A DNA stretch of 64,000 bases, taken from Siphonodentalium dalli (lineage: Eukaryota; Mollusca; Scaphopoda; Gadilida; Siphonodentaliidae). Location of the stretch: assembly GCA_032622095.1 (NCBI GenBank), contig CP136061.1, forward strand, positions 48,925,797-48,989,796. The letters are read 5' to 3'. The position numbers and the translations under genes are program-made. Positions within the stretch are counted from its first letter, which is position 1. Each line of letters begins with the position of its first letter. Under the pieces are notes generated by a model, which worked only from the letters and a program-made list of their open reading frames with translations, had not been told where the DNA came from and made no database searches. This document shows, one piece after another, positions 10,106 to 62,065 of the stretch.

Positions 10106-10205
10106 ATTTGCAATGTTGACAAAATCGTTTTCACCAAGAGTATCCAGCAATGATTTTACAGCCACTTTGATGAGATTCAATGCCTGGCCATGGACACTTC
10201 CACTC
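10106..10205 (-). CDS. CACNA2D: alpha2/delta window exon 8 (residues 218-251), VWA domain
   Basis: 100 bp: the last base of the shared Thr codon and 33 codons, reading [20 protein letters not shown] and ending [11 protein letters not shown]. It supplies S219 and S221 of the DxSxS MIDAS motif and the first VWA helix. It matches the family pattern VSGSVSGLTLKL-----LETLSDDDFVNVA. The acceptor is GTTTTTCAG|GAG and the donor AAT|GTTAGT. N251 together with F252-S253 of the next exon makes a possible N-glycosylation site. The exon ends in phase 0. Confidence 0.97.
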
Positions 10206-10434: not shown

Positions 10435-10922
10435 TTAAACCCTTAATTTACTAAATACTCATTGACGAGTAGTTCCCTCAGGAAATGTTCAGACAATAAG
10501 TGCAGTAATGCTCTAAGTAATCGACTCCTTAACCACAGCAGAATTATGGGTAACTTTTCAGGATTTAGTCAGAAATATGGCTTGTTGCCATTCATCGGAA
10601 AGCTCTCCCCGAGAGCTTTCCAATGAATGGCAACAAGCCATATTTCCAACTAAATCCTGAAAAGTTACCCATAATTCTGCTGTGGTTAAGGAGTCGATTA
10701 CTTGGAGCATTACTGTAGGTCGTTTGTTGAACTTATTAGTTGAACACTTCCAACCAATGAATATGAATCCTTCTGCTCTTGTATTATCTGTTACTCTGTC
10801 TGAGTGTCTGTTGTCTGCTTTTAATACATCAACACCCCACCAAATGAATAATAGACCATTCCAATTTTAACTGTTAATTTTATAACTGAATGGGAGAATC
10901 CATTCAGTATAGAAAGGGTTAA
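10435..10922. mobile_element. Family F MITE interrupted by a family C MITE
   Basis: Left part 10435-10500 (ACTAAATACTCATTGACGAG) and right part 10717-10922 (GGTCGTTTGTTGAACTTATT to GTATAGAAAGGGTTAA) are the two halves of one F element. A C element sits between them. Confidence 0.85.
10501..10716. mobile_element. Family C palindromic MITE nested in F
   Basis: 216-bp near-perfect palindrome, GCAGTAATGCTCTAAGTAAT to GAGCATTACTGTA, centre near 10611 (CTCTCCCCGAGAG). It interrupts the F copy, so it is younger than that F insertion. Confidence 0.92.
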
Positions 10923-11387: not shown

Positions 11388-11438
11388 GTGTCTATTAAAA
11401 TGAGCATGTCTTTTGGTGAACTGGAACCCTGTGTATAC
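11388..11438 (-). CDS. CACNA2D: alpha2/delta window exon 7 (residues 201-218), first VWA strand and MIDAS start
   Basis: 51 bp: one base of the shared Trp codon, 16 codons (YTQGSSSPKDMLILID), two bases of the shared Thr codon. MLILID is the first beta-strand of the VWA domain. D217 is the first residue of the DxSxS metal-ion-dependent adhesion site, and the exon boundary splits the motif between D-T and S-G-S. The acceptor is GTTTACAG|GTA and the donor ACAC|GTAAGTA. The equivalent vertebrate text is YIQGA-SPKDMLILVDVSGS, so alignment is unambiguous. Confidence 0.96.
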
Positions 11439-11939: not shown

Positions 11940-12003
11940 CATGGCTGTCTTCTAACATCGAACAGATCAACCTTAGCTTTTCCAAAGATGTGCCATTTTC
12001 TTG
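11940..12003 (-). CDS. CACNA2D: alpha2/delta window exon 6 (residues 180-201), gabapentin-motif exon
   Basis: 64 bp: two bases of the shared Ala codon, 20 codons, two bases of the shared Trp codon. It reads RKWHIFGKAKVDLFDVRRQP(W). It is equivalent to the vertebrate stretch NKIDLYDVRRRPWY just before the VWA domain. In alpha2delta-1/-2 the three consecutive arginines are known to be needed for gabapentin binding. Here the third is glutamine (Q199, codon at 11945-11947). The acceptor is CATTTCAG|CAA and the donor CATG|GTATGT. The intron to exon 7 is only 501 bp. Confidence 0.95.
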
Positions 12004-13413: not shown

Positions 13414-13545
13414 CTGGAAAGGTTCTCATGAATCCTGTCTGACTTCCGAAGTATTGCCACAGTATCTCCTCATCAGAAAGGTAGTTCTTCTCAAATATAT
13501 CGTCCAGATCCTTAGACCACTCTAAACCATTCAAAATATCCAGAC
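13414..13545 (-). CDS. CACNA2D: alpha2/delta window exon 5 (residues 136-180), VWA_N region
   Basis: 132 bp: two bases closing the shared Ser codon, 43 codons, and one base of the next Ala codon. It reads LDILNGLEWSKDLDDIFEKN and then EEILWQYFGSQTGFMRTFP. This matches the vertebrate pattern ILNGLNWT-ALE-VF and LLWQVFGSATG--RYYPA closely, a diagnostic part of the VWA_N domain (Pfam family VWA_N). The acceptor is CGTTTCAG|GTC and the donor CCAG|GTACGG. The intron to exon 6 is 1.4 kb. Confidence 0.96.
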
Positions 13546-13649
13546 CTGAAACGAAAAGGTAAAATGATGAGGATGTAAGAGAATTAGCATATAATGAATT
13601 AGATACACGCTAAACCATTCAAAATATCCAGACCTGATGAATAAAAAGA

Positions 13650-15931: not shown

Positions 15932-16394
15932 GACCTCAGAATTGCAGATGCACATGTTCCGATGGTACTAAATATCTGTGCCAAGTTTCAAAGATACTGA
16001 CTGAAAAATGTTTTGTGTCAACAGACGGATGGACAGTCAGATGGACAGACAAGCTGATACCTACAGTAATGCCCTAAATAATCGACTCCTTAACCACAGC
16101 AGAATTATGGGCTATTTTTCAGGATTTAGTGCGAAATATGGCTTCTTGCCACTCAGTGAGAGCTTTCCGATGAATGGCAACAAGCCATATTTCCGACTAA
16201 ATCCTGAAAAATTACCCATAATTCTGCTGTTGTTAAGGAGTCGATTATTTAGGGCATTACTGTAGGTATCAGCTTGTCTGTCCATCTGACTGTCCATCCG
16301 TCCGTGGACACAAAACATTTTTCAGTCAGTATCTTTGAAACTTGGCACAGATATTTAGTACCATGGGAACATGTGCATCTGCAATTATGAGGTC
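15932..16394. repeat. 463-bp inverted repeat spanning two repeat families
   Basis: The central part (16072-16264) is a family C palindrome. The inverted symmetry continues about 130-140 bp beyond it on each side into pearl-like sequence: left ACTGACTGAAAAATGTTTTG and GATGGACAGTCAGATGGACA, right TGTCCATCTGACTGTCCATC and CAAAACATTTTTCAGTCAGT. Opposite strands therefore encode almost the same open frame. Confidence 0.92.
16072..16264. mobile_element. Family C palindromic MITE
   Basis: TACAGTAATGCCCTAAATAA to GGGCATTACTGTA, the core of the larger inverted repeat. The central spacer is slightly asymmetric. Confidence 0.9.
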
Positions 16395-16467: not shown

Positions 16468-16603
16468 TGCCATCATAAATCTCCACTGGAATATGGACTG
16501 CTGACATTGAAGTGTTAACGCACTGCTTGAAGCGTTCGTTGTATTCAAAGCGAGGGTCAGAGTCATTCAGCTCATTGGCATTCAGGTAAGGGGTGTTCTT
16601 TTT
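16468..16603 (-). CDS. CACNA2D: alpha2/delta window exon 4 (residues 91-136), start of VWA_N region
   Basis: 136 bp: 45 codons plus the first base of the serine codon shared with exon 5. It reads KKNTPYLNANELNDSDPRFE and ends AVHIPVEIYDG(S). The acceptor is TATTTACAG|AAA and the donor GGCA|GTGAGTT. AVHIP-EIY-GS is the family signature equivalent to AAVHIPTDIYEGS in vertebrate alpha2delta. N103-D-S and N120-T-S are possible glycosylation sites and C118 is the first cysteine in this fragment. The intron before it (24.5 kb) is the longest in the window, and its last ~500 bp form a 53/78-bp minisatellite. Confidence 0.94.
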
Positions 16604-17125
16604 CTGTAAATACAAAATAAAAGTAGTGTCATGAAATGCCTGGAAAGTAGCGGTGAATCAAGATACAAAATAAAAGTAGTGTCATGAAATGCCTGGAAAT
16701 GAGTGGTGAATCAAGATACAAAATAAAAGTAGTGTCATGAAATGCCTGGAAATGAGTGGTGAATCAAGATACAAAATAAAAGTAGTGTCATGAAATGCCT
16801 GGAAAGTAGCGGTGAATCAAGATACAAAATAAAAGTAGTGTCATGAAATGCCTGGAAATGAGTGGTGAATCAAGATACAAAATAAAAGTAGTGTCATGAA
16901 ATGCCTGGAAAGTAGGGATGGGAGATACATGTACACTGGTGAATTGAGAGAGATACAAAATAAAAGTAGTGTCATGAAATACCTGGAAATTAGGGATGGG
17001 AGATACATGTACACTGGTGAATTGAGAGAGATACAAAATAAAAGTAGTGTCATGAAATACCTGGAAATTAGGGATGGGAGATACATGTACACTGGTGAAT
17101 CGAGAGAGATACTAAATGCTAAGAT
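16604..17125. repeat. 53/78-bp minisatellite at the acceptor side of exon 4
   Basis: Units start at 16611, 16664, 16717, 16770, 16823 and 16876 (53-bp period), then 16954, 17032 and a decaying copy at 17110 (78-bp period). On the minus strand each unit contains CTACTTTTATTTTGTAT, the pyrimidine-rich tract that precedes the real exon 4 acceptor ATTTACAG at 16604. The 78-bp units contain an extra GGGAGATACATGTACACTGG segment. The array occupies the 3' end of the same 24.5-kb intron whose 5' end carries the donor array. Confidence 0.95.
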
Positions 17126-17765: not shown

Positions 17766-17983
17766 TACAGTAATGCCCTAAATAATCGACTCCTTAACCA
17801 CAGCAGAATTATGGGTAACTTTTCAGGATTTAGTCGGAAATATCGCTTTTTGCCATTCAGCGGAAAGCTCTCATGGGGGAGATATCCGATGAATGGCAAC
17901 AAGCCATATTTTCGACTAAATCCTGAAAAGTTACCCATAATTCTGATGTGGTTAAGGAGTCGATTATTTAGGGCATTACTGTA
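17766..17983. mobile_element. Family C palindromic MITE
   Basis: 218-bp palindrome TACAGTAATGCCCTAAATAA to GGGCATTACTGTA. Open frames on both strands are its translation. Confidence 0.92.
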
Positions 17984-34386: not shown

Positions 34387-37300
34387 CTTGATATTTGCCA
34401 TGAATCAGTGGGCACTAGATATAATCGCTTGATATTTTCAATGAGGTGATCACTTGATATTTGCCATCAGGTGGCCTTTGATATTTGCCATAAGGGGCGA
34501 CTTGATATTTGCCACAAGGGAGGGGGCATTGTCCATGAGGTTGTCACTTGATACTTGCCATGGGGTGGTCATTTGATACTTTCCATGAGGTGGTCACTTG
34601 ATATTTGCCATGAGGTGGTCACGTGATATTGTCCATGAGGTGGTTACTTGATACTTGCCATGGGGGGGTAACTTAATAATTATATTTCATGAGGTAGTCA
34701 CTTGCTATTGCCATGCGGTCACTTGATAATGTCCATGAGGTTGCCACTTGATATTATCCATGAGGTTGTCACATGATATTATCCATGAGGTGGTCACTTG
34801 ATATTTGCCATGAGGTGGTCACTTAATATTAGTCATGATGTGACCATTTGATATTTACCATTATAAGGTGCTGACTGGTGGTCACTTGATATTCACCATG
34901 AGGTTGTCACTTGATAATTGAGATATGGGGGTCACTTGATATTATCCATGAGGTGGTCACTTGATACGTCGATATATGCCATGATGTGCCCATTTGATAT
35001 TTACCATAAGGCGGCCACTTGATATTGTCAAGGAGGTGGTCACTTCATAATTGCCATGATATTTGCCATGAGGGGTTAATTTACTGATACTAACATTGGG
35101 GTGGTCACTTAATATTTGCCGTAATATTTAACATGAGGGGGTACTTTACTGAATCTTACATTGAGGTGACTTGATATTTATCATAATATTTACCATGAGG
35201 GGGTGATTTACTGATACTAACATTGAGGTGGTCAATTAATATTTGCCGTGATATTTGCCATGAGGGGGTAATTTATTAATACTTACATTGAGGTGGTCAC
35301 TAGATATTCGCCATGAGGGGGTAATTTACTGATAACAACATTGAGGTGGTCACTTGATATTTGCCGTAATATTTGCCATTCGGGGGTAATTTACTGATAC
35401 TTACATTGAGGTAGTCACTTGATATTTGCTGTGATAATTGCCATGAGGGGGTAATTTACTAATACTAACATTGAGGTGGTCACTTGATATTTGCCGTTAT
35501 ATTTGCCATTCAGGGGTAATTTACTGATACTTACATTGAACTGACTTGATATTTATGATAATTGCCATGAGGGGGTAATTTACTGATACTAACATTGAGG
35601 TGGTCACTTGATATTTACCGTGATATTTGCCATTCGGGGGTAATAATACTTATACTTACATTGACGTGGCCACTTGATATTGCCATGAGAGGGTAATTTA
35701 CTGATACTTACCTTGTGGTGGTCACTTGATATTTGCCGTGATATTTGCCATGAGGGGACAATTTACTGATACATACATTGAGGTGGTCACTTGATATTTG
35801 CCGTGATATTTGCAATGCGGGGGTAATTTACTGATAGATACATTGAAATTACTTCATATTTACAATATTTGCCATGAGGGGGTAATTTATTGATATTAAC
35901 ATTAAGGTGTTCACTTGATATTTAACGTGATATTTGCCATTCGGGGGTAATTTACTGATACTTACATTGAGGTAGTCACTTGATATTTGCTGTGATAATT
36001 GCCATGAGGGGGTAATTTACTAATACTAACATTGAGGTGGTCACTTGATATTTGCCGTTATATTTGCCATTCAGGGGTAATTTACTGATACTTACATTGA
36101 ACTGACTTGATATTTATGATAATTGCCATGAGGGGGTAATTCACTGATACTAACATTGAGGTGGTCACTTGATATTTACCGTGATATTTGCCATTCGGGG
36201 GTAATAATACTTATACTTACATTGACGTGGCCACTTGATATTGCCATGAGAGGGTAATTTACTGATACTTACCTTGTGGTGGTCACTTGATATTTGCCGT
36301 GATATTTGCCATGAGGGGACAATTTACTGATACATACATTGAGGTGGTCACTTGATATTTGCCGTGATATTTGCAATGCGGGGGTAATTTACTGATAGAT
36401 ACATTGAAATTACTTCATATTTACAATATTTGCCATGAGGGGGTAATTTATTGATATTAACATTAAGGTGTTCACTTGATATTTAACGTGATATTTGCCA
36501 TGAGGGGGTAATTTACTTATATTACCTTTGAGGTGGTCACTTGATATTTGCCATGAGGGGTAATTTACTAATACTAACATTGAGGTGGTCACTTGATATT
36601 TGCTGTTATATTTGCCATTCAGGGGTAATTTAATAATACTTACATTGAACTGACTTGATATTATGATAATTGTCATGAGGGGGTAATTTACTGATACTAA
36701 CATTGAGGTGGTCACTTGATATTTACCGTGATATTTGCCATTCGGGGGTAATAATACTTATACTTACATTGACGTGGAACCTTGATATTTGCCATGAGGG
36801 GGTAATTTACTGATACTTACCTTGTCGTGGTCACTTGATATTTGCCGTGGTATTTGCCATGAGGGGGCAATTTACTGATAGATACATTGAGGTGGTCACT
36901 TGATATTTGCCGTGATATTTGCAATGTGGGGGTAATTTACTGATAGATACATTGAAATTACTTCATATTTATGATATTTGCCATGAGGGGGTAATTTACT
37001 GATACTAAACATTAAGGTGTTCACTTGATATTTAACGTGATATTTGCCATGAGGGGGTAATATACTTATACTATCTTTGAGGTGGTCACTTGATATATGC
37101 CATGAGAATAATTTACTGATACTTACATTGAGGTGGTCACTTGATATTTGCCATGAGAATAATTTACTGATACTTACATTGAGGTGGTCACTTGTTATTA
37201 GTAGTGAGGGGTTAATTTACTGATACTTACATTGAGGTGGTCACTTGTTATTAGCAGTGAGGAGATAATTTACTGATACTTACATTGAGGTGGTCACTTG

Positions 37301-40300
37301 TTATTAGCAGTGAGGAGATAATTTACTGATACTTACATTGAGGTGGTCACTTGTTATTAGCAGTGAGGGGTTAATTTACTGATACTTACATTGAGGTGGT
37401 CACTTGTTATTAGCAGTGAGGGGTTAATTTACTGATACTTACATTGAGGTCGTCACTTGTTATTAGCAGTGAGGGGTTAATTTACTGATACTTACATTGA
37501 GGTGGTCACTTGTTATTAGCAGTGAGGGGTTAATTTACTGATACTTACATTGAGGTGGTCACTTGTTATTAGCAGTGAGGGGTTAATTTACTGATACTTA
37601 CATTGAGGTGGTCACTTGTTATTAGCAGTGAGGAGATAATTTACTGATACTTACATTGAGGTGGTCACTTGTTATTAGCAGTGAGGGGTTAATTTACTGA
37701 TACTTACATTGAGGTGGTCACTTGTTATTAGCAGTGAGGGGTTAATTTACTGATACTTACATTGAGGTGGTCACTTGTTATTAGTAGTGAGGGGTTAATT
37801 TACTGATACTTACATTGAGGTGGTCACTTGTTATTAGCAGTGAGGGGTTAATTTACTGATACTTACATTGAGGTGGTCACTTGTTATTAGCAGTGAGGGG
37901 TTAATTTACTGATACTTACATTGAGGTGGTCACTTGTTATTAGCAGTGAGGGGGTTAATTTACTGATACTTACATTGAGGTGGTCACTTGATATTAGCAG
38001 TGAGGAGATAATTTACTGATACTTACATTGAGGTGGTCACTTGTTATTAGCAGTGAGGGGTTAATTTACTCGATACTTACATTGAGGTGGTCACTTGTTA
38101 TTAGCAGTGACGGGTTAATTTACTGATACTTACATTGAGGTGGTCACTTGTTATTAGCAGTGAGGGGTTAATTTACTGATACTTACATTGAGGTGGTCAC
38201 TTGTTATTAGCAGTGAGGGGTTAATTTACTGATACTTACATTGAGGTGGTCACTTGTTATTAGCAGTGAGGAGATAATTTACTGATACTTACATTGAGGT
38301 GGTCACTTGTTATTAGCAGTGAGGAGATAATTTACTGATACTTACATTGAGGTGGTCACTTGTTATTAGCAGTGAGGGGTTAATTTACTGATACTTACAT
38401 TGAGGTGGTCACTTGTTATTAGCAGTGAGGGGTTAATTTACTGATACTTACATTGAGGTGGTCACTTGATATTAGCAGTGAGGAGATAATTTACTGATAC
38501 TTACATTGAGGTGGTCACTTGTTATTAGCAGTGAGGGGTTAATTTACTGATACTTACATTGAGGTGGTCACTTGTTATTAGCAGTGAGGGGTTAATTTAC
38601 TGATACTTACATTGAGGTGGTCACTTGATATTAGCAGTGACGGGTTAATTTACTGATACTTACATTGAGGTGGTCACTTGTTATTAGCAGTGAGGGGTTA
38701 ATTTACTGATACTTACATTGAGGTGGTCACTTGTTATTAGCAGTGAGGGGTTAATTTACTGATACTTACATTGAGGTGGTCACTTGTTATTAGCAGTGAG
38801 GGGTTAATTTACTGATACTTACATTGAGGTGGTCACTTGATATTAGTAGTGAGGAGATAATTTACTGATACTTACATTGAGGTGGTCACTTGTTATTAGC
38901 AGTGAGGAGATAATTTACTGATACTTACATTGAGGTGGTCACTTGTTATTAGCAGTGAGGGGTTAATTTACTGATACTTACATTGAGGTGGTCACTTGTT
39001 ATTAGCAGTGAGGGGTTAATTTACTGATACTTACATTGAGGTGGTCACTTGATATTTGCCATGAGGAGATAATTTACTGATACTTACATTGAGGTGGTCA
39101 CTTGTTATTAGCAGTGAGGGGTTAATTTACTGATACTTACATTGAGGTGGTCACTTGATATTAGCAGTGAGGAGATAATTTACTGATACTTACATTGAGG
39201 TGGTCACTTGTTATTAGCAGTGAGGGGTTAATTTACTGATACTTACATTGAGGTGGTCACTTGTTATTAGCAGTGAGGGGTTAATTTACTGATACTTACA
39301 TTGAGGTGGTCACTTGTTATTAGCAGTGAGGAGATAATTTACTGATACTTACATTGAGGTGGTCACTTGTTATTAGCAGTGAGGGGTTAATTTACTGATA
39401 CTTACATTGAGGTGGTCACTTGTTATTAGCAGTGAGGGGTTAATTTACTGATACTTACATTGAGGTGGTCACTTGTTATTAGCAGTGAGGAGATAATTTA
39501 CTGATACTTACATTGAGGTGGTCACTTGTTATTAGTAGTGAGGGGTTAATTTACTGATACTTACATTGAGGTGGTCACTTGTTATTAGTAGTGAGGGGTT
39601 AATTTACTGATACTTACATTGAGGTGGTCACTTGTTATTAGCAGTGAGGGGTTAATTTACTGATACTTACATTGAGGTGGTCACTTGTTATTAGCAGTGA
39701 GGAGATAATTTACTGATACTTACATTGAGGTGGTCACTTGTTATTAGCAGTGAGGGGTTAATTTACTGATACTTACATTGAGGTGGTCACTTGTTATTAG
39801 CAGTGAGGGGTTAATTTACTGATACTTACATTGAGGTTGTCACTTGTTATTAGCAGTGAGGGGTTAATTTACTGATACTTACATTGAGGTGGTCACTTGT
39901 TATTAGCAGTGAGGGGTTAATTTACTGATACTTACATTGAGGTGGTCACTTGTTATTAGCAGTGAGGGGTTAATTTACTGATACTTACATTGAGGTCGTC
40001 ACTTGTTATTAGCAGTGAGGGGTTAATTTACTGATACTTACATTGAGGTGGTCACTTGTTATTAGCAGTGAGGGGTTAATTTACTGATACTTACATTGAG
40101 GTGGTCACTTGTTATTAGCAGTGAGGGGTTAATTTACTGATACTTACATTGAGGTGGTCACTTGATATTAGCAGTGAGGAGATAATTTACTGATACTTAC
40201 ATTGAGGTGGTCACTTGTTATTAGCAGTGAGGGGTTAATTTACTGATACTTACATTGAGGTGGTCACTTGATATTAGCAGTGAGGAGATAATTTACTGAT

Positions 40301-41138
40301 ACTTACATTGAGGTGGTCACTTGTTATTAGCAGTGAGGGGTTAATTTACTGATACTTACATTGAGGTGGTCACTTGTTATTAGCAGTGAGGAGATAATTT
40401 ACTGATACTTACATTGAGGTGGTCACTTGATATTAGCAGTGAGGAGATAATTTACTGATACTTACATTGAGGTGGTCACTTGTTATTAGCAGTGAGGAGA
40501 TAATTTACTGATACTTACATTGAGGTGGTCACTTGATATTAGCAGTGAGGAGATAATTTACTGATACTTACATTGAGGTGGTCACTTGTTATTAGCAGTG
40601 AGGGGTTAATTTACTGATACTTACATTGAGGTGGTCACTTGATATTAGCAGTGAGGAGATAATTTACTGATACTTACATTGAGGTGGTCACTTGTTATTA
40701 GCAGTGAGGGGTTAATTTACTGATACTTACATTGAGGTGGTCACTTGTTATTAGCAGTGAGGGGTTAATTTACTGATACTTACATTGAGGTGGTCACTTG
40801 TTATTAGCAGTGAGGAGATAATTTACTGATACTTACATTGAGGTGGTCACTTGTTATTAGCAGTGAGGGGTTAATTTACTGATACTTACATTGAGGTGGT
40901 CACTTGTTATTAGCAGTGAGGGGTTAATTTACTGATATTTACATTGAGGTGGTCACTTGATATTTGCCATGAGGAGATAATTTACTGATACTTACATTGA
41001 GGTGGTCACTTGATATTTGATGTGAGGAGGTAATTTACTGATACTAACATTCAGGTGGTAATTTATAAATACTTAAGTTGAGTCGTCTTGATATTTGCCA
41101 TGATATTTGCCGTCAGGAGGTAATTTACTGATACTTAC
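34387..41138. repeat. 6.7-kb minisatellite seeded on the exon 3 donor splice site
   Basis: A tandem array fills the first 6.7 kb of the intron after exon 3 (gene orientation is minus). It has three zones. From 37083 to about 41030 there are about 74 nearly identical units of 53 bp. From about 35090 to 37083 the units are longer and more diverged. From 34387 to 35090 the units are short (about 25-35 bp) and degenerate. On the minus strand each 53-bp unit contains GACCACCTCAATGTAAGTAT, the last exon 3 bases with one change followed by the intron's real 5' splice site. Units differ mainly by GGGGTTAAT versus GGAGATAAT and by TTGTTATT versus TTGATATT. The array stops exactly at the functional donor at 41138/41139. 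There are no unique spacers, so it is not a CRISPR array, and 53 is not a multiple of three, so it is not a coding repeat. Confidence 0.97.
35367..36488. repeat. 561-bp higher-order tandem duplication inside the minisatellite
   Basis: The block 35367-35927 is repeated at 35928-36488 with an offset of exactly 561 bp and almost no differences (one clear change is near 36138). A third, more diverged copy, with an offset of about 548-551 bp, runs from about 36530 to 37010. The duplication includes several basic units, so this is a higher-order repeat. Confidence 0.9.
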
Positions 41139-41198
41139 ATTGCGGTGGTCACTCCACGTGTATTTTGCTGCAGCTTCCTCAGCTTTTGCCACTGATTT
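41139..41198 (-). CDS. CACNA2D: alpha2/delta window exon 3 (residues 71-90), 60-bp micro-exon between two minisatellites
   Basis: 60 bp, 20 codons, phase 0 at both ends, reading KSVAKAEEAAAKYTWSDHRN. The acceptor is TTTTGTTGCAG|AAA and the donor AAT|GTAAGTATCAG. It continues the helix of exon 2 and ends near the point equivalent to AAHQW in vertebrate alpha2delta-1. Both flanks are unusual. The upstream intron begins immediately with a ~33-bp array carrying the acceptor's pyrimidine stretch. The downstream intron begins with a 6.7-kb array repeating the last 13 exon bases plus the donor. The exon length is a multiple of three, so skipping would keep the reading frame; alternative inclusion is therefore possible, but that is inference. 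Confidence 0.88.
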
Positions 41199-41475
41199 CT
41201 GCAACAAAATAGATATCACACATGTTATCAACAAAATAGATATCACACATGTTAACATAATAGATACCGATATCACACATGTTAACAACAAAATACATGT
41301 AGATATCACACATGTTAACAACAAAATACATGTAGATATCACACATGTTAACAACATAATAGATACCGGTATCACACATGTTAACAACATAATAGATACC
41401 GGTATCACACATGTTAACAACAAAATACATATAGATATCACACATCTTAACAACATAATAGATATCACATGTCAG
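41199..41475. repeat. ~33-bp tandem array at the acceptor side of exon 3
   Basis: About nine units of 27-33 bp start at 41212, 41239, 41269, 41302, 41335, 41369, 41402, 41434 and 41461. Each contains GATATCACACATGTTAAC or a close variant, followed by AACA(A/T)AATA. On the minus strand the segment next to exon 3 reads GATATCTATTTTGTTGCAG, and the units repeat the CTATTTTGTTG part, so the array repeats the pyrimidine stretch of the real acceptor. The open frames here on both strands are products of the repetition. Confidence 0.93.
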
Positions 41476-42640
41476 CATATTTAAACCATATTATTGGGCT
41501 ATTGTGCTATTGTATTGCATAATACATATTGGTTCAATGGATTGTGATGTGTAACTTGAGCCATTGTGTCTTCTCCCTGATAACAGCCCACTTCTCCCAA
41601 ATTATCAAATAGGTAGAAGTGACTTACAGGGAGAAGTGACTTCTCCAAATTTGAAACCTCTAGGCTGCATGGTCCAGTGTTCGTTTTGGCCAAACATTTT
41701 TTTTACTCCAAATGGAGACGGAATGCTAATTCAAAAGCGCTGAATAGATCGACAGTGCCGTCGAAGTTAGGCAAAGAAAGTATCGTGGGTTTCATACTTC
41801 GGAAGTATCGTACCGTGAAAACCCAGATTTATTTTGTAATGAGAGCATTTGAAGAGAGTTGTTATCAGTGAGCGCAATGAATATTGGATATAAAACACTA
41901 TTATCAAAATGCTTAATCTATACATTGTATGATAAAATGGTTAAATGCATTATCCCATAATTGGATGAATATCTCAATGGCATGTGGGTTATGCAAAGTG
42001 TTATAAACCGCCTCCCGTCTAATGACAACAACCTGACTTCACATCATAAAAGGTTTGAATACAATAGATATTCAACAGCTCACATTAATGAGCAACATTT
42101 GTTTATATCTCGGCGAAAATAGTGATTACAACTAACACAGCTTATTACTTGATTAGTTGGCGACCATGGTGTCAGCGAGTTATTGCACAGGGTTAAGCAG
42201 ACTAATACAATTATAATTATATTAAATGTTAGTTTCATTGTTTGCATTAAAGGCCCAGCGATTTCTGACTGATTTCCACAATACTTTTCTATATGGTCAG
42301 ATATGAAATCTCGTCGTATTTTGCATTATTAATATTGACTTAATTGAATTGATCTGCTTAACGTGTGACATAATCATACCTATATCTTCATATAATATTA
42401 TGTTTGTAAAGTTGTTTTTGTGTTGTTTTAATTATGTTTTCATTCTGAGTAACAAATAAAGTTTAAAAAAAATAATTTAGTCATCAAGTGTGAACCGCCC
42501 AGTAAATGAGGATTTAATTTGGCCAATTTTTTTTTCCAATTTGGCCCAAGTTTTTTTAATTTGGCCAATAAAATTTTCATTTGGCCAAACTTTTGGCCAA
42601 AAGTTTTTTCGGTTCAGCGCGAACACTGGGCTGGTCCCTA
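41476..42640. other. Intron between exons 2 and 3: no clear feature
   Basis: A GGGAGAAGTGACTT-type repeat lies at 41565-41660. A low-complexity T-rich segment with repeated TTTGGCCAA words occurs at 42520-42610. No gene seen. Confidence 0.5.
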
Positions 42641-45925: not shown

Positions 45926-46143
45926 TACAGTAATGCCCTAAATAATCGACTCCTTAACCACAGAAGAATTATGGGTAACTTTTCAGGATTTAGTCGGAAA
46001 TATGGCTTGTTGCCATTCATCGGAAAGCTCTCAATGAGAGCTTTCCGATGAATGTCAACAAGTCATATTTCCGACTAAATCCTGAAAAGTTACCCATAAT
46101 TCTGCTGTGGAAAAGGAGTCAGATTATTTAGGGCATTACTGTA
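45926..46143. mobile_element. Family C palindromic MITE
   Basis: 218-bp palindrome TACAGTAATGCCCTAAATAA to GGGCATTACTGTA. Confidence 0.92.
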
Positions 46144-52182: not shown

Positions 52183-52392
52183 TACAGTAATGCCCTAAAT
52201 AATCGACTTCTTAACCACAGCAGAATTATGGGTAATTTTTCAGGATTTAGTTGGAAATATGGCTTGATCCATTCATCGGAAAGCTCTCAGTGAGAGCTTT
52301 CCGATGAATGGCAACAAGCCATAATTCCGACTAAATCCTGAATAGTTACCCATAATTCTTCTGTGGTTAAGGAGTTTTAGGGCATTACTGTA
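52183..52392. mobile_element. Family C palindromic MITE
   Basis: TACAGTAATGCCCTAAATAA to GGGCATTACTGTA, with small deletions in the right arm. Confidence 0.9.
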
Positions 52393-61607: not shown

Positions 61608-62065
61608 TTAACCATTTCTATACAAGTACTAAATGGATTCTACCACTCAGTCATAAAAGTATACACAGTAATAACCTAAGTAATCGACTCTTTAACTACA
61701 GCAGAATTATGGGTAACTTTTCAGGATTTAGTCGGAAATATGGCTTGTTGCCATTCATCGGAAAGCTCTCCCCGAGAGCTTTCCGATGAATGGCAACAAG
61801 CAATATTTCCGACTAAATCCTGAAAAGTTACCAATAATTCTGCTGGAGTTAAAGAGTCGATTACTTACCGGTAGGGCTTTACCGTACATTGGAAGGGTCT
61901 ATTATTCATCTGGAGTAAGTGCAGAAGGAATCGTATTCATTAGGAGGAAATGTTCAGATAATGAGTTCAACAAACAACCTACCGTAGGGTACTTATTATC
62001 TGAACACTTCCTAAGGGGTACCGGTAACTAATCGTCAATGAGTACATGTATTTAGAAAGGCTTAA
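61608..62065. mobile_element. Family F MITE interrupted by a family C MITE
   Basis: TTAACCATTTCTATACAAGT at the left, TTTAGAAAGGCTTAA at the right. The F sequence AAAGTATACA is split from CATTGGAAGGGTCTATTATT by the C insertion. Confidence 0.85.
61665..61886. mobile_element. Family C MITE nested in F
   Basis: ACAGTAATAACCTAAGTAAT to GGGCTTTACCGTA, a palindrome with more substitutions in its last 20 bp than other copies. Confidence 0.85.

Follow-up and report, generated by a model that had tools for sequence, protein, structure and literature searches.

A large tandem array of junction-like units at the exon 3 donor of an alpha2delta gene in the scaphopod Siphonodentalium dalli

A voltage-gated calcium channel alpha2delta gene is found on the minus strand of the 64,000-nucleotide stretch of Siphonodentalium dalli DNA analysed here (contig CP136061.1; hereafter the window, whose positions are used unless a contig is named). 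Downstream of its exon 3, 6.7 kb of tandem repeats start directly at the donor, and all parts of this array are similar to the exon 3/intron 3 junction. Judged from its sequence the array descends from that junction itself, and it is very probably a 'mirage', i.e., a repeat of the kind described at lancelet exon-intron boundaries, that has expanded recently and is passively tolerated by the gene.

The array downstream of exon 3

The array, its parts and the stop codon that precedes all of its further donors are located as follows.

41131..41138, minus strand: authentic 5' splice site GTAAGTAT, exon side AAT, complementary to the U1 5' end ATACTTACCTGG
34428..41138, minus strand: putatively junction-derived array (mirage) with 85 further donor-like sites
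37050..41059, minus strand: homogeneous core, a 53-bp unit in 75.7 copies with 96% matches (Tandem Repeats Finder, TRF)
35033..37105, minus strand: part of older appearance, with periods of 65/189 bp, an internal duplication of 561 bp and a donor core that often reads GTTAGT, GTATCT or GTATGT
34428..35059, minus strand: distal part of 25-bp units collinear with the junction, the unit consensus having lost the donor GT
41073..41075, minus strand: stop codon TAA in frame, 63 nt beyond the authentic donor, read if a downstream donor is used

The gene is recognised by exons 3-8, which have AG/GT borders, share one joint frame and give a spliced product of 181 amino acids (aa). Compared with the PDB, this reading matches alpha2delta-1 chains at 2.4e-44, and its match to the VWA_N family is at 5.3e-33. 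Intron 3 extends over positions 41138-16604 (minus strand), which agrees with the 24.5 kb given in the first-pass annotation of this DNA. That annotation had also described a 6.7-kb minisatellite with a 53-bp unit at the start of the intron, which TRF bears out, a few degenerate units preceding the 53-bp core. The unit was said to consist of the end of exon 3, with one change, plus its donor. This is indeed so when the authentic junction, CACCGCAAT/GTAAGTATCAG (exon 3 tail AGTGACCACCGCAAT/GTAAGTATCAG), is compared with the array units, CACCTCAAT/GTAAGTATCAG; the repeat unit takes in 14-15 nt of exon 3 together with the donor and hence spans the real exon-intron boundary. The 15-mer CAATGTAAGTATCAG has 77 exact occurrences, all on the minus strand and with the authentic junction counted, vs none in 100 shuffles, and a chance origin of the repeated 15-mer is thereby rejected.

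The scoring of 5' splice sites on the minus strand, proposed earlier as a check, was made with an approximate weight matrix written from general knowledge. Between 34387 and 41141 it finds 86 sites, the authentic donor among them, with scores no lower than that of this donor, vs 3.8 sites per equal length on the coding strand of the rest of the window. All 86 read GTAAGTAT, 83 of them as AATGTAAGT and three as AAGGTAAGT; the three lie in the older part and score much higher. The same 9-mer as in the authentic donor is found in 82 of the 85 further donors, and their spacing is mostly a regular 53 bp. At or above 37050 there are 74 sites (authentic included), which matches the 'about 74' of the first reading, while 12 lie below, in the older part. 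When core units are defined by cutting at CACCTCAA, 70 pieces fall into 14 unit types, mixed together with no recurring order, and the array as a whole has a homogenised middle with degenerate units at both ends. The genome searched comprises 2.23 Gb in 9 contigs and represents one haplotype of one species; two DNA searches of it matched this array alone (at least 49 and at least 54 matches), and a dispersed satellite is therefore rejected.

Even the 25-bp units at the distal end are recognisable as relatives of the junction. The distal unit AAGTGACCACCTCATGGCAAATATC aligns without gaps to the junction AGTGACCACCGCAATGTAAGTATCA with 18 of 25 positions identical, a score reached by 0 of 2000 doublet-block shuffles and by 0 of 641 window pieces outside the array. 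Because these units are also collinear with the junction, every unit class holds the exon tail plus the donor region.

At the start of the top-scoring U1 gene in this genome is ATACTTACCTGG, which is fully complementary to GTAAGTAT; the complementarity to U1 noted earlier for the unit thus holds against the animal's own U1. At least 42 U1 matches over the cut-off are found in the genome, and tandem U1 small nuclear RNA genes lie about 2,150 bp apart at C1:103842444-103879156.

Each of the 85 further donors comes after the in-frame TAA, from which even the nearest is 78 nt away, and only two weak GTs lie between the authentic donor and the TAA. Because the stop precedes every one of the 85, they cannot lengthen the protein. 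The first-pass annotation had listed alternative donor use among the possible effects of the array; the suggestion falls as far as a longer protein is concerned, and what is left of it is use that ends in the stop. Nonsense-mediated decay usually requires that the stop precede the next junction by more than 50 nt, and the premature stop obtained with any of the 85 donors would do so.

Described boundary repeats and other donor arrays in the genome

Minisatellite-like tandem duplications of exon-intron boundaries, termed mirages, are described in the lancelet (amphioxus) genes for Adh3 and the globins BflGb6 and BflGb9 (PMC3087553), to which PGBD5 and troponin C have been added (PMC3902484). 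They are reported to leave splicing undisturbed (PMC3087553; PMC3902484), and the BflGb6 mirage has 6 and 3 units in two described haplotypes (PMC3087553). As far as these accounts go, the alpha2delta array is like the amphioxus mirages in that the unit spans a real boundary and many units keep the AG/GT splice signals, in that both 5' and 3' boundaries are affected (exon 3 donor; acceptors of exons 3, 4, and 5; both sides of the NOTUM exon described below), and in that concerted evolution takes place inside the cluster with the boundary units excluded, as seen here from the 14 types among 70 pieces and the degenerate ends. By the same accounts it is unlike the BflGb6 mirage in having 85 further donors over 6.7 kb, and unlike amphioxus mirages in general in sharing its gene with three affected acceptors.

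The human gene IFI6 (6-16, G1P3) carries a minisatellite with a unit of 12 bp, in contrast to the 53 bp of the alpha2delta unit. This splice-donor minisatellite was reportedly described by Turri in 1995. Two of its downstream repeat units are reportedly used as donors and give rise to isoforms (PMC4526556). The two arrays are alike, both being minisatellites of donor-like units that begin at an exon end; unlike in IFI6, each of the 85 further alpha2delta donors would, at the sequence level, include a stop. In human segmental duplications, internal tandem repeats across exon-intron boundaries, on average 30 bp in four copies and with novel introns, can alter splicing (PMC2812944), and a donor array of the alpha2delta size is absent from the accessible account given there. 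Likewise no report of an array of this size was found in the literature consulted on boundary repeats, subscription papers lying largely outside that coverage. The earlier view that such a series of sites was not known from any described gene is set aside by the lancelet mirages and IFI6, which are of the same kind, and the alpha2delta array is a large example of an already described kind of repeat.

Donor arrays are also found at other exons of this genome. A NOTUM exon (L043, C1:10.788 Mb; PDB match 3.2e-19) is followed by a 60-bp donor array in seven copies made from its own tail plus donor, and on its acceptor side a 73-bp array of 2.6 copies includes the acceptor, so that both borders carry mirages. 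Reading beyond the NOTUM donor meets TAA immediately. Arrays of AGGTAAGT occur in at least 16 places on contig C1. Open reading frames (ORFs) of nine of these were tested in Pfam and three were over the cut-off, i.e., exon tails matching LEM (8.9e-9), USP47_C (1.6e-12), and plexin PSI (6.2e-8), and in each of the three the exon tail is part of the repeat unit. Five others (L060, L061, L064, L065, and L069) gave candidate exons with no Pfam match over the cut-off and L058 gave none; L069, which we take to resemble a protein tyrosine phosphatase, gave nothing significant in the searches. The remaining places lie outside the Pfam test, namely L056, L057, and L059 (like L058), together with L055, L063, L067, and L068, the stretches of which stop short of a clear upstream end. 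Among arrays of the reversed motif, used as control, sequence was taken for 12 of 13 places among those listed, and 10 ORFs from eight places gave no Pfam match over the cut-off, the best being a retrotransposon zinc finger just under it. The difference between three of nine donor arrays on real exons and none of eight in the control is suggestive, not significant.

Arrays of GTAAGTAT itself occur in at least five places within the first 26 Mb of C1, of which NOTUM is confirmed. Two of them (L045 and L053, at 20.2 and 25.8 Mb) are segmental copies with a 33-bp donor array after one candidate exon without homology, and in one copy a stop lies inside the candidate exon. An ORF at the 21.5 Mb array has no match in Pfam, and no ORF was seen at the 14.0 Mb array. 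Genome-wide, triplets of GTAAGTAT at 33-63 bp spacing number 7597 vs 5508 for the reversed motif (1.4 times), those at 12-42 spacing 5025 vs 4819 (1.0 times), and matches of AGGTAAGT 2253 vs 2548 (0.9 times); the figures count matches, not arrays, and may be dominated by large arrays. A general enrichment of U1-site arrays is rejected on these figures. As donor motifs in tandem do not consistently outnumber their reversals, no donor-specific mechanism is needed. The genome is rich in minisatellites of every sort and exon-intron junctions are among their seeds. The alpha2delta array and the smaller ones at other genes suggest that mirages are no rare curiosities in it.

Origin of the array and its possible roles

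We infer the following order of events. About 25 bp spanning the exon 3/intron 3 junction (the tail AGTGACCACCGCAAT and the first bases of the donor) would have been duplicated in tandem, whereafter the donors decayed in the 25-bp units. A compound 53-bp unit would then have formed from a donor-bearing 28-bp half and a decayed 25-bp half, and its recent expansion would have led to the approximately 75 copies now present. The exon side of the unit is likely ancestral, because the alignment of exon 3 to alpha2delta-1, gapless from AEEAAAKYTW to YLNA, includes the junction. The array lies within the intron, beyond the authentic donor, and the spliceosome most likely still uses this first donor since exon 3 would be defined by its acceptor and the first donor downstream of it. 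Were a later donor used by leakage, the extended exon would bring a stop into the transcript, which would probably be lost to nonsense-mediated decay.

Nothing indicates that selection keeps the copies able to bind U1. For a U1 array under selection the donor core would be better conserved than the rest of the unit, and neither in the homogeneous core nor in the older part is it so. In the 64 core units compared, rare variants occupy 1 of 704 donor cells vs 8 of 2688 elsewhere (p 0.70), i.e., no constraint is detectable. The donor core of the older part is more variable than the rest: across 18 distinct units, 21 of 108 cells in the GTAAGT columns depart from the core consensus vs 25 of 288 cells elsewhere (p 0.0045).

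Several points weigh against a passively tolerated array of recent expansion. In the count for the older part the sequences are non-independent, the ancestral state (GTAAGT or GTTAGT) is uncertain and matches of the 25-bp type are left out. GTAAGTAT triplets at 33-63 bp spacing are 1.4 times as frequent as the reversed control. The choice of donor is read from DNA alone, and age and polymorphism are beyond the scope of a single haplotype and species. A second alpha2delta locus, a paralogue, is found at C1:215.86 Mb; its exon 3, sought as an outgroup, was not found in the 9.9 kb upstream and its exon 4 seemingly begins three residues nearer the shared YxNA motif, so that the exact ancestral boundary of exon 3 is not proved.

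The direction of the process can also be read in reverse, with exon 3 having captured its present end from an older minisatellite, so that the exon now ends in one unit of a repeat that was there first. It is true that the 25-bp and 28-bp halves resemble variants of one repeat. However, the alpha2delta spacing to the YxNA motif is kept gapless in exon 3, both genome searches matched the array here alone (their counts being lower bounds), and the NOTUM, LEM, USP47, and plexin arrays hold the coding sequence of recognisable exons, which suggests that the direction in this genome is from exon to array; a captured exon end is accordingly considered improbable. That the animal itself has far fewer units, the array being an artefact of assembly, is more improbable still: tandem arrays are error-prone, but the intermixed unit types in non-repeating order and the degeneration of both ends speak against it, as does the position of the array inside a 277-Mb contig.

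It is conceivable that the array has a function in splicing. One such role would be that of a rheostat, in which downstream donors compete with the authentic one, a fraction of the transcripts stops at the in-frame TAA and gene output depends on how many units there are. The 9-mers downstream score equal to or higher than the authentic donor, all of them lead to a premature stop, and the use of downstream units in IFI6 is a precedent as far as described (PMC4526556). The lancelet mirages are, on the other hand, reported not to disturb regular splicing (PMC3087553; PMC3902484), and we consider a rheostat unlikely. Alternatively, many U1 small nuclear ribonucleoproteins assembled at the start of the 24.5-kb intron could strengthen the donor or suppress premature polyadenylation. 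The 85 further sites all fit this genome's U1, the 1.4-fold ratio at 33-63 bp spacing points the same way, and the predicted accessibility of the first 11 array donors is 0.16-0.49 vs 0.24 for the authentic donor, which is not singled out by this measure among the first 12. A functional U1 array is nevertheless improbable, as the donor columns are without detectable constraint, two of the three pattern scans gave no excess over reversed motifs and the same gene has arrays and duplicates on its acceptor side. It is tempting to combine the above and speculate that junctions are a standing source of minisatellites and that the length of the alpha2delta array tunes output, more units giving more U1 and a copy-number-dependent share of transcripts to the stop path, but there is little probability that this is so.

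Passive tolerance of the array would still leave it informative. It has long been asked how the spliceosome settles on a single 5' splice site when several are equal, and the alpha2delta array constitutes a natural test in which one donor is chosen among 86 after a 60-nt exon. Reads across the junctions of such arrays would measure the use of first, last or mixed donors, and thus weigh exon definition against extra U1 sites; several other genes of this genome carry smaller donor arrays.

The alpha2delta exons, acceptor-side repeats and neighbouring elements

The exons that make up the spliced reading, and the repeats on the acceptor side of three of them, are given below.

41139..41198, minus strand: exon 3, 60 nt, phase 0, KSVAKAEEAAAKYTWSDHRN; part of the in-frame 181-aa alpha2delta-1 match
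16468..16603, minus strand: exon 4, 136 nt; spliced reading, alpha2delta-1 and VWA_N matches
13414..13545, minus strand: exon 5, 132 nt; spliced reading, alpha2delta-1 and VWA_N matches
11940..12003, minus strand: exon 6; spliced reading and alpha2delta-1 match
11388..11438, minus strand: exon 7; spliced reading and alpha2delta-1 match
10106..10205, minus strand: exon 8, donor AAT/GTTAGT; spliced reading and alpha2delta-1 match
41199..41473, minus strand: 33-bp array, the exon 3 acceptor region being the last of 9 units and the last two exact (TRF 41209-41465)
16610..17117, minus strand: 53/78-bp array, the polypyrimidine region of the exon 4 acceptor being the last of 8 copies
13610..13637, minus strand: one copy of the exon 5 acceptor junction (AG with the start of the exon), identical over 28 nt and located 88 nt upstream

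Near copies are thus found at 4 of the 12 junctions of alpha2delta exons 3-8 (the exon 3 donor and the acceptors of exons 3, 4, and 5), a rate that is descriptive as the gene was selected for its array. They are found at 2 of 60 junction zones of 30 myosin loci (many of these loci look like recent paralogues, and the zone edges there are match ends, not proved splice sites) and at 1 of 4 zones of two alpha2delta-paralogue loci. In random intronic zones of the same 32 loci the figure is 19 of 192, and the idea that junctions are generally array-prone is rejected on these figures. At C4:274.2-275.5 Mb many muscle-type myosin head exons with similar scores lie close together, which suggests a recent amplification of myosin genes.

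A fold-back element with a GTAACTTTTCAGGATTTAGTCGGAAATATGGC core has 10 plus-strand and 12 minus-strand matches within the window (e.g., 10550-10668, 16111-16215, 17815-17934, 34307, 45975-46093, 52232-52349, and 61713-61831). There are copies where the array ends distally, some 250 bp beyond exon 4, and near exons elsewhere (L008, L045).

A signal-peptide-like ORF near 42.2 kb (MQTMKLTFN...), which ends at a GT, is not to be accepted as exon 2 on DNA evidence alone, since it sits in an interspersed repeat of about 950 bp (window 41684-42628, minus strand). This repeat gave 136 genome rows at E up to 10, one of them the region of exon 3 itself. Many of its best genome copies are without stops, the approximately 950 bp are 82% identical to another copy, and in one copy (L005) a part of it is present in tandem 48-bp copies.

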